Assembly: GCA_019187195.1 (NCBI GenBank)
Contig: JABAQT010000017.1
Coordinates: 26,864-90,863 of the forward strand
DNA from: Bryobacteraceae bacterium
GTDB lineage: Bacteria > Acidobacteriota > Terriglobia > Bryobacterales > Bryobacteraceae
Length of the DNA: 64,000 bases
Reading direction: 5' to 3'
In this document: positions 5,001-61,577 of the stretch, piece after piece
Position numbering within the stretch: the stretch's first letter is position 1
Layout: each line of letters starts with the position of its first letter
Position numbers and translations under genes: made by a program
Notes under the pieces: model-generated
Seen by the model: only the letters and a program-made list of their open reading frames with translations
Database searches by the model: none
Told to the model about the DNA's origin: nothing

Positions 5001-6080
5001 ATGACACGGCGATTTGCAACTGGGCTCGTCTGCGCGATCCTTCTCGGAGGCATCCTCTCCGGCCAGCAGAAGGCGAAGAATGTGATCCTCTTCATCGGCG
5101 ACGCGGGAGGCGAATCCTCGCTGAGCGCGGCGAGTATCCAGGGCTACGGCGCTCCGCAGAAATTGTTCCTGCAAAGGGAGATGAACATCGGGCTGTCCGA
5201 CACATCGTCGGCCAATTCGTGGGTGACTGATTCGGCCGCCGGCATGACCGCCATTGTCACGGGGCACAAAGTGAACAATGGGGTTCTGTCGCTCGCTCCC
5301 GATGGGACACCGTACAAGACGATCCTCGAATACGCCGAAGAGCACGGTCTGTCGACCGGCGTGGTGTCGAACATGGCCATGGCCGATGCCACTCCGGCGG
5401 CCTGCTACGCCCACGTGGACAGCCGCAAGAAGTTCGGCGAAATCTTTCCGCAGATCTGGAAGCCGCGTTTTGGCGACGGCGTCGATCTGGTGCTTGGAGG
5501 CGGGAAAAAGAGAATACTCGAGGCGCTCCAGGAGGCGAACGTCGATCTCATGCAGGCGGCTCCGGCGGCCGGGTGGCCGGTCTACGAAACGCTGGCGGAG
5601 GTTCCGGACAAGGGGAAGAAGGCGATTCTGCTTGTCGACGGCGACTTCAAGGTGGATGAGGCCGCGGCCAAAGCCATCCGCATCCTTTCTCGCAATCCCA
5701 AGGGCTATTTTCTGATGGTGGAGTGGGACCTGCATCCCGGCAACGTCGAGAAGATGTTGGAAACGGCGGTCGCTCTCGACCGGTTGATCGAGCAGAGTTC
5801 CACAACGCTGGCATCCAGGGACACGCTTGTGGTGTTTGCCGCGGACCATTCATTCGACCTGCGCCTGCGCAGCGGCAAGCGCGGCGCCCCGCTCATGCTG
5901 CCCGCCAACGCAAAGGAGTTCGCCGCCGGCGGCAAGTACGATCTCGCCGTCGGAACGAGCCATACGGGCGAGGAAGTGATTGTGGCCGCCCACGGTCCGG
6001 GATCGCAGTTGGTGAAGGGATTCATGCCCAACACCCACATCTTCGATATCATGCTTGCAGCCTGGGGGTGGAAGAAATAA
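5001..6080 (+). CDS. alkaline phosphatase family protein (secreted)
   Basis: A 359-residue PhoA-superfamily phosphomonoesterase with an N-terminal signal peptide (residues 1-21, ending near LSGQQ), so it should act in the periplasm or outside. Metal and catalytic residues are visible: Asp34 in NVILFIGDAGGE, the nucleophile Ser78 in VTDSAAGMTAIVTGH, Glu241 in MVEWDLHPGN, Asp282-His283 in FAADHSFD and His321 in TSHTGEE. The usual IDHAGH-type block is replaced by DLHPGN, marking a divergent subfamily. A TATACT hexamer lies just upstream of the ATG (4984-4989). The gene is monocistronic and divergent from thiC. Confidence 0.9.
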   Translation: MTRRFATGLVCAILLGGILSGQQKAKNVILFIGDAGGESSLSAASIQGYGAPQKLFLQREMNIGLSDTSSANSWVTDSAAGMTAIVTGHKVNNGVLSLAPDGTPYKTILEYAEEHGLSTGVVSNMAMADATPAACYAHVDSRKKFGEIFPQIWKPRFGDGVDLVLGGGKKRILEALQEANVDLMQAAPAAGWPVYETLAEVPDKGKKAILLVDGDFKVDEAAAKAIRILSRNPKGYFLMVEWDLHPGNVEKMLETAVALDRLIEQSSTTLASRDTLVVFAADHSFDLRLRSGKRGAPLMLPANAKEFAAGGKYDLAVGTSHTGEEVIVAAHGPGSQLVKGFMPNTHIFDIMLAAWGWKK

Positions 6081-6107
6081 TCCAGCCGCGCCGGCGCGTG
6101 GAGACGG

Positions 6108-6581
6108 TCACTGCTTGTCGAAATTCAGTGACATCTTGAAGGCTCCGTTCGGGGTCTGGATCACTGAGTTCACGTTCAGCGCTTTGCCGTCCTCGCTGAT
6201 CGTCCACCTGTCCACCTGTTTGATCTCGGCCCCCTGTACCGAGCGCTTCGTTTCCACCACCAAGGTGTCGCCGCCCCACTTGGCGGTCCCCTTGATCTCT
6301 CCAAACGCGGACTTGGCGGTGAACTCCCTGCCGTCCGTGGTGTAGCGGAACTCGGTCTTCACTTCGCCCTGGTGTCCTACCTGCACAGTCTTCACCGATA
6401 TTTCCGGGTCTTTGTGCTCGATGGTGCGGACCAGTTTCTCCGGGGCCGGAAGAGTGCCGAAATCGCTCTTGGAAGCGTTCATCTTCCATTCTCCCGTGAA
6501 ATTGGGCTTGGCCAGAAGCGCCGTCCCAAAGAGCAGCGAAACGAATATGGCAGCAGCAAAACGTATTGGAGTGTGAAGCAC
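6108..6581 (-). CDS. secreted lipocalin-like hypothetical protein
   Basis: A 157-residue protein with a clean signal peptide (about residues 1-24, ending at LLAK). The mature part begins NFTGEWKMNASKSDFG, a start seen in many small exported acidobacterial proteins. It then forms a regular series of short beta strands (TEFRYTTDGREFT, IKGTAKWGGDTLVVETK, VDRWTISEDGKALNV), as in a small beta barrel that scores a compound or surface. It converges on the alkaline phosphatase gene with a 27-base gap. The binding partner is unknown. Confidence 0.75.
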   Translation of the reverse strand: MLHTPIRFAAAIFVSLLFGTALLAKPNFTGEWKMNASKSDFGTLPAPEKLVRTIEHKDPEISVKTVQVGHQGEVKTEFRYTTDGREFTAKSAFGEIKGTAKWGGDTLVVETKRSVQGAEIKQVDRWTISEDGKALNVNSVIQTPNGAFKMSLNFDKQ

Positions 6582-43457: not shown

Positions 43458-43488
43458 ACGCGCGGACAGCCGGGCGCAAGAACAGAAA

Positions 43489-44115
43489 TGGTTCCAAGTG
43501 ACCTGCTTCCCGGTGCTGCTCAACCCGCCGTGCATGCCCGGCGTGAGCGTGGCGGAATGCCTTGCGGGGCAGCGTCTCCCTTGCTCGACGCGCCCGTTTT
43601 CGACGGACGCGCTTCGATGCTCCGAAGTCTGCCAGCCAACCAGACAACCCGAAGCGCGGCTGCTCATACCGGCCTTTCGCTCCTCCACATGGACTTACCG
43701 TCTCCGGCTTGCCCAGGCGGGCTCTTCACTCCCGGCCTGATATTTCGCCTGCCGCGGCGCGTCAGGGAGCGGGTCCGTTCGGTCATCCTCTCCCGGCCTC
43801 GACCGTTTCCGGTCTCGGGGCCGATCCACGAAGACTCCCCGTTACCCGCGCTGAACGAACCGCTTCCCGCCTCTCCCTCCACCGCCGCTCCCCTCCGGGA
43901 CTTTCATCCCTCGGGATCCTGGCCTTAAAGGCCCTGCAGCCCTCCCGGGTCGCACACGCGCACGGTGATGGCACTGGCGGGAACGCTTACCGGTGGACGC
44001 CGCCCGATTTTCCTTCACTCCCCTTCAGCGGGCATTGGTATGCGCTGTCGGATCATCGTTCCGGAATCGCTACGGCCTTAACCGGCTTCGCCGTTCCGTG
44101 TGCCTCTTGGAACCA
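43489..44115 (-). ncRNA. candidate large structured RNA or decayed ribozyme element
   Basis: This gene-free stretch is bracketed by a 10-base inverted repeat (TGGTTCCAAG at 43489-43498, CTTGGAACCA at 44106-44115). Several hairpins are visible inside: GACCG/CGGTC at 43801-43814 with a GAAA loop on the minus strand, CCGT/ACGG at 43594-43606 with an outer GCG/CGC, GCCC/GGGC at 43711-43722, GGGA/TCCC at 43897-43910 and ACGGC/GCCGT at 44072-44094. Bases 43861-43920 are 46/60 pyrimidine on the plus strand, so the purine-rich RNA would be transcribed from the minus strand. No protein-like frame, reverse transcriptase or HNH gene is present. RNase P and tmRNA motifs were not found. Confidence 0.5.
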
Positions 44116-44307
44116 CCCCCATCTTGCACCGCGCGAGGCGTTCGCGGCAAGAGAAAAGAGCATCCCGCGCTATGTTTCCACAGTTTTTTATCTTACCTAT
44201 TTACATTCGGATACGATGAAGCCGCGGTGAAAATCCTGTGAATAAAACGCTCTTGAATTGAAATGTTTGCCAGGGGTCTCCGCCCGAGCGCGGGCGCGCC
44301 ATCCGAC

Positions 44308-61075: not shown

Positions 61076-61577
61076 GGCTTTCCTTTCCTGCCCACTGCTG
61101 ATGGCCTTTGTCTTCATACTCTAGCTTGGTGAAGCTCAACTCTCCCGGATGAGTATCCGGCAATAACAGACACCCATGATATTCATAAGACCATTTCAAC
61201 GAGATTCTATCACTGGGGCTGGGTGGATGGCGGTTCGCGGGAGCAGATGCAGGCAGAGTGCAGGGGATGACAATGGCAAATGGAACAGTCAAAGACGCGA
61301 TCGCGCAACATATGGTACCCTAGAAATTTCTTGGTAGAGGCGCGGCAACCATTAGTAGCGCGCGTGATGTACGGGCCCGGTCCGGACGTGCGCGAAAGGG
61401 GTTGGCAGTATCCGCCGAAATCGTCGTGGAAACCGGCTCCGCGGCGGTTGGGGGTTCAGGCTAAATCCTGGCCACTGTCATCCGAGTGGAATCGGATGGA
61501 GCGCTATCGGGAAGCGAATACTCGCCGTACACGCAGTTTCCTTCTCCCCGCCTCCTTTCGATTCTCATCAACAACTT
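61076..61577. other. intergenic region between divergent operons
   Basis: No gene is supported in these ~500 bases; open frames here look like shadows. A 7-base-pair hairpin (CATCCGA at 61479-61485 with TCGGATG at 61492-61498) lies about 80 bases upstream of the M20 peptidase gene. The region should contain the promoters of both the GTPase operon and the lysine/threonine-pathway operon, but no consensus sites stand out. Confidence 0.5.

Follow-up and report, generated by a model that had tools for sequence, protein, structure and literature searches.

A large structured non-coding RNA of Bryobacteraceae with five kink-turn motifs and a candidate palindromic kissing loop

What do 627 gene-free bases between inverted repeats encode in the genome of an acidobacterium? 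The element lies in a 64,000-nucleotide (nt) stretch of DNA (the window) from a Bryobacteraceae bacterium (GenBank assembly GCA_019187195.1, contig JABAQT010000017.1, positions 26,864 to 90,863). An earlier note, made from the letters of the DNA, listed three candidates: a large unknown non-coding RNA (ncRNA), a remnant of an IscB-type guide RNA and a decayed group II intron. Here we report, from sequence comparison, that positions 43489–44115 (minus strand) form a free-standing gene whose product is a large structured ncRNA of 627 nt, an RNA common to many soil and sediment acidobacteria. Covariation, homologues, a promoter, a T-rich tract and a non-coding substitution pattern all agree on the first of the three candidates.

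We collected full-length copies by profile in rounds (30, then 86, then 134). The 134 relatives (132 unique; 549–737 nt, median 600 nt), all from Bryobacteraceae, extend the element well beyond its locus, and they align with it from base 1 to base 627, so that the ends of the homologous unit coincide with the proposed boundaries, 43489 and 44115. The inverted-repeat arms are exact (TGGTTCCAAG at 43489–43498 and CTTGGAACCA at 44106–44115) and form the closing helix of the RNA, P1, which is followed by the T-rich tract (Table 1). The suspicion that the arms might have arisen by chance is contradicted by their conservation, as GGTTCCAAG in 129 and as CTTGGAACC in 126 of the 134 copies. The plus strand has the pyrimidine bias ascribed to it (59.6%, exceeded by only 1.5% of 627-base stretches). 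Richness in stems was likewise borne out: the folding energy of the minus strand is −302.6 kcal/mol, compared with −269.7 ± 5.7 kcal/mol for dinucleotide shuffles (z = −5.8, from only 20 shuffles). GNRA-type hairpin loops, also pointed out before, do occur (for example, CCGGAAACGG), but the recurrent feature is a kink-turn internal loop and not a tetraloop.

We found no tRNA and no Rfam 15 family inside the element. No Rfam model matches the window element at E ≤ 10 or the loci of 20 relatives at E ≤ 1, in agreement with the 'unknown' status given to it. The same search bears on the two other candidates, a decayed group II intron and an IscB/HEARO guide RNA, to which we assign next to no probability: neither a HEARO nor a group II model matches the window element at E = 10, and the element is conserved and has a promoter of its own. 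Two minus-strand segments, GTGCGACC and GATGAAAGTCCC, do resemble group II domain I, but GTGCGACC sits in an arm limited to the window lineage and its close relatives and is absent from most copies. The RNase P RNA of the genome was ruled out, as a separate type A RNase P RNA is present in 16 of 16 genomes, including that of the window, and 6S RNA was ruled out by a separate 6S match in the genome of the window. We found no paper describing the RNA in the open-licence literature; Solibacter-1 (Weinberg 2010), an uncertain motif of Solibacter usitatus that is not in Rfam, appears in PMC2864571 by name alone.

Table 1 Features of the RNA gene in the window. For the kink-turns, the fractions are copies that keep both G·A pairs.
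Feature	Position	Strand	Remarks
Large structured ncRNA, whole unit	43489–44115	-	End-to-end homologues; 30/30 significant covarying pairs inside the structure
−35 box, TTGCCG in the window copy	44145–44150	-	Position read from the sequence
−10 box, CAAGAT in the window copy, spacer 18	44121–44126	-	Position read from the sequence
Closing helix P1, 5′ strand	44106–44115	-	Exact arms, kept across copies
Kink-turn-like motif A (44049–44059/44015–44024)	44015–44059	-	131/132; C-stem geometry non-canonical
Kink-turn B (43909–43936/43886–43894)	43886–43936	-	126/132; extra arm in the loop in the window lineage
Kink-turn E (43822–43832/43788–43795)	43788–43832	-	124/132; C-stem pairs covary
Kink-turn C (43720–43730/43678–43685)	43678–43730	-	119/132; adjacent stem covaries
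Kink-turn D (43611–43621/43582–43589)	43582–43621	-	119/132
Hairpin loop GCAUGC, palindromic; candidate for homodimer kissing	43532–43537	-	Conserved self-complementarity
Closing helix P1, 3′ strand	43489–43498	-	Exact arms, kept across copies
T-rich tract after P1, terminator-like	43478–43488	-	At least 6 T in the first 10 nt

Comparison of the copies establishes their homology and a common secondary structure. RNAalifold gives the 132 sequences a consensus energy of −351 kcal/mol, 167 of it from the covariation term. Significant covarying pairs, for which the earlier note had proposed a search, fall entirely within the consensus structure, 19 of 19 with 86 sequences and 30 of 30 with 132. 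These pairs were called on sequence-based alignments with our own R-scape-like script, not R-scape itself. The script applies an APC-corrected G-test, and its null comes from placing the substitutions of every tree branch anew at randomly chosen columns. P1 hardly varies within the main group of copies, and in relatives from genus g42 both of its sides have changed to a different yet self-complementary helix, with the pairing retained. In 24 close pairs of copies the changes favour no codon phase, and 40 of the 42 indels have lengths that three does not divide; the RNA is therefore not a protein gene.

A promoter of the σ70 type, conserved among the copies, stops roughly 6 nt short of the first base of the RNA. 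TTG[AC] lies upstream of every copy, and TTGAC is found in 127 of 132, 34–36 nt before the first base. A −10-like hexamer, usually of the form CATNNT, is present in 128 of 132 copies, with a spacer of 17 nt in 110 and 18 nt in 18. Transcription would thus start from this promoter at the first base of P1. The promoter of the window copy is weaker than the consensus, and its RNA forms 155 of the 190 consensus pairs; because of these two features, the window paralogue may be less active. At the other end, the T-rich tract is found in 126 of 133 copies, and therefore P1 and this tract may together act as a terminator. The position of the RNA between genes is what a cis-acting leader of a downstream gene would also show, but we rate such a role as very improbable, considering that the downstream gene lies on the opposite strand (a glycosyltransferase gene in the window, an aminotransferase gene in many other loci) and that the T-rich tract follows the RNA.

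The RNA was detected in 143 of 237 Bryobacteraceae genomes and 58 of 76 genera, at one to three copies each, with a covariance model of the 5′ domain that misses diverged members, for example in several 'negative' genomes of genus g42. The window's own genome has a second copy on another contig, with 71% identity in a DNA search. Both genomes of a sister family carry the RNA at full length, whereas it was not found in 18 genomes of a third family of the order; a phylum-wide sample outside the two families gave only marginal truncated matches, which we judged to be chance. Three named records found by a pattern search, which does not reflect the true distribution, are from Bryobacteraceae and include Candidatus Sulfopaludibacter. 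In several model-negative g42 genomes, relatives occupy the syntenic aminotransferase site and share the promoter and the kink-turn core. We estimate their lengths at about 330–410 nt at this site and 519–600 nt for long forms, the ends of the short forms having been assigned by a simple script; four short forms contain one or two kink-turn cores and no dimer hairpin. At locus L148, a second, partial copy (5852–6271) lies shortly downstream of a full copy. A phage or plasmid origin was ruled out, as phages and plasmids gave no match, and pattern scans of viral contigs yielded no full-length copy and six pattern matches attributable to chance.

A common order at the locus is a GAF gene, a Ycf48-like gene and the RNA, followed on the opposite strand by genes for a class IV aminotransferase, a HipA-like kinase and a lytic transglycosylase. 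The window itself has, in this order, genes for a transglycosylase, a Lys-rich protein and a HipA-like protein, then the RNA and a convergent glycosyltransferase gene with an MshEN domain. The HipA-like kinase gene (PF20613; 44311–45156, minus strand) is a neighbour of the RNA, on either side, at 31 of the 86 loci. GAF, aminotransferase, HipA-like and transglycosylase genes recur as neighbours, and flanking genes are syntenic within a genus and often across the family. This synteny speaks against a small MITE-like mobile element with the arms as terminal inverted repeats, as do the internal stems, which covary, and the termini, which are RNA helix ends with a promoter just outside. The perfect 10-bp repeats, the one to three copies found per genome, in differing contexts, and the copies that end contigs, as repeats do, would suit such an element, which we nevertheless regard as highly unlikely. 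Six copies stop at contig ends, which suggests near-identical repeats that break assemblies. No co-directional neighbour is constant and no gene is conserved with the RNA across loci, and because it has no constant partner gene, the RNA is likely to be a stand-alone trans-acting or structural molecule. Elsewhere in the window, a lysine riboswitch aptamer lies at 61327–61514 on the plus strand (86 bits).

Several internal loops of the RNA are highly conserved, and comparison reveals kink-turn signatures in five, which read GC-NNN-GA-NCC/GGN-GA-GC or close to that, with both G·A pairs (G·A and A·G) kept in most copies (Table 1). Five kink-turns within one non-ribosomal RNA are unusual. A canonical 3-nt bulge is present at B (in most copies), C, D and E, whereas motif A departs from the canonical form in its C-stem. 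The Kt-7-type kink-turn has the same elements, namely a C-stem, a 3-nt bulge, G·A and A·G pairs and a 3n = G or 3b = C (PMC4382518); the present case differs in that five motifs share one non-ribosomal RNA and in that the bulge of motif B has received an arm in the window lineage. This extra hairpin arm (within 43909–43961, minus strand; about 20–45 nt) is found in the window lineage and in some relatives of the same genus, unlike k-junctions, in which the opposite strand bears the extra arm (PMC10573300). The 3b·3n pair decides whether metal ions are enough for a kink-turn to fold: exactly one of 3n = G and 3b = C must hold (PMC4382518). The rule holds in 132, 130, 121, 123 and 124 of 132 copies for motifs A, B, E, C and D, respectively, and motif C displays both solutions (C·C, C·A and C·U versus U·G and G·G), with C-G not listed. 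The sequences thus predict that these kink-turns fold in metal ions without protein. We found the L7Ae family (PF01248), to which OapC belongs, in 0 of 237 Bryobacteraceae genomes, with positive controls; an L7Ae-type partner protein was thus rejected, and the absence fits protein-free folding.

The 3′ hairpin, with loop hexamers read by eye, has GCAUGC as its loop in 98 of 132 copies, and comparison shows that self-complementarity is kept where the sequence is not. The replacements GCUAGC, UCUAGA, GUAUAC, UCAUGA, GCGCGC, GUUAAC and ACAUGU are perfect palindromes; the eight perfect palindromes cover 116 of 132 copies, six more are palindromic with wobble, seven keep a 4-nt palindromic core and three long copies have no palindrome. 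A copy from the sister family carries the loop GCUAGC, and three long, diverged forms from g42 carry GCAUGC. Parsimony counts 22 changes, nearly always to another self-complementary hexamer, and 123 of 129 RNAs contain the hexamer a single time. These two observations make selection for pairing between two molecules the simplest explanation, and the single occurrence renders an intramolecular loop partner unlikely. The palindromic loop thus points to homodimeric kissing. A hairpin with a 6-nt palindromic loop is likewise used for kissing in the HIV-1 type dimer-initiation hairpin (PMC4066764), an unrelated RNA that provides an analogy of mechanism only. Dimerization cannot be essential everywhere, because the short g42 forms and three of the 132 long copies lack the palindrome. 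These palindrome-free RNAs, together with the highly conserved internal loops, would agree with a free-standing structured RNA that acts as a monomeric ribozyme or trans-acting regulator, the palindrome being a protein site or an intra-RNA loop–loop contact, but the repeated change from one self-complementary hexamer to another and the single hexamer per molecule argue against it, and we regard it as unlikely, albeit the most serious alternative.

We consider it quite probable that the locus encodes an independently transcribed class of ncRNAs of about 600 nt, closed by P1, with five kink-turns and a palindrome for homodimerization, that form an architectural particle. In this model, transcription would begin from the promoter with the first base of P1, a helix that would pair the 5′ end with the 3′ end and close the molecule, possibly serving as a terminator stem with the T-rich tract after it. 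Multi-branched arms inside would carry the five kink-turn motifs, and the loop of the 3′-terminal hairpin would let two RNAs kiss to form a homodimer. The particle would be either a dimer made of RNA alone or a scaffold offering surfaces to which proteins or small ligands bind, much as has been proposed for OLE.

OLE is a free-standing, elaborate RNA of about 600 nt with one kink-turn, which forms an RNA-only dimer by cryo-EM (PMC12286853), and OapC is the presumed binding partner of its kink-turn (PMC9723947). The acidobacterial RNA resembles it in length, ends, stand-alone gene, elaborate structure and use of kink-turns, and would resemble it in dimer formation, here deduced from the loop. 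It differs in having no match to an Rfam covariance model (at the thresholds given above), five kink-turn motifs to the one of OLE (PMC12286853), no OapC-like protein in the 237 genomes, a candidate palindromic kissing loop and a host in Acidobacteriota rather than Bacillota. GOLLD and ROOL, which are also large ornate bacterial RNAs, both assemble into homo-oligomers, and ROOL shows quaternary kissing loops (PMC12286853); again no covariance model matches at those thresholds, and the acidobacterial loci are vertically inherited and chromosomal. The best reading is a new class of large 'ornate' RNA, with an OLE-like architecture and a sequence unrelated to that of OLE, which would form an RNA dimer. 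With somewhat less assurance than for the particle itself, we favour a new large bacterial RNA class that would form an RNA-only homodimer or higher oligomer through five kink-turns that fold by themselves and a kissing loop of palindromic sequence, in a lineage that has no L7Ae-type kink-turn proteins.

Known bacterial RNAs that are as large and complex as this one are few (OLE, GOLLD and ROOL), and their functions are open. The RNA described here would add a further, apparently independent large-RNA class from a dominant, under-studied soil lineage. It would offer a precise, testable assembly mechanism, in which kissing palindromes have repeatedly changed in evolution with self-complementarity kept, and a rare natural set of kink-turns on which published folding rules can be tested.
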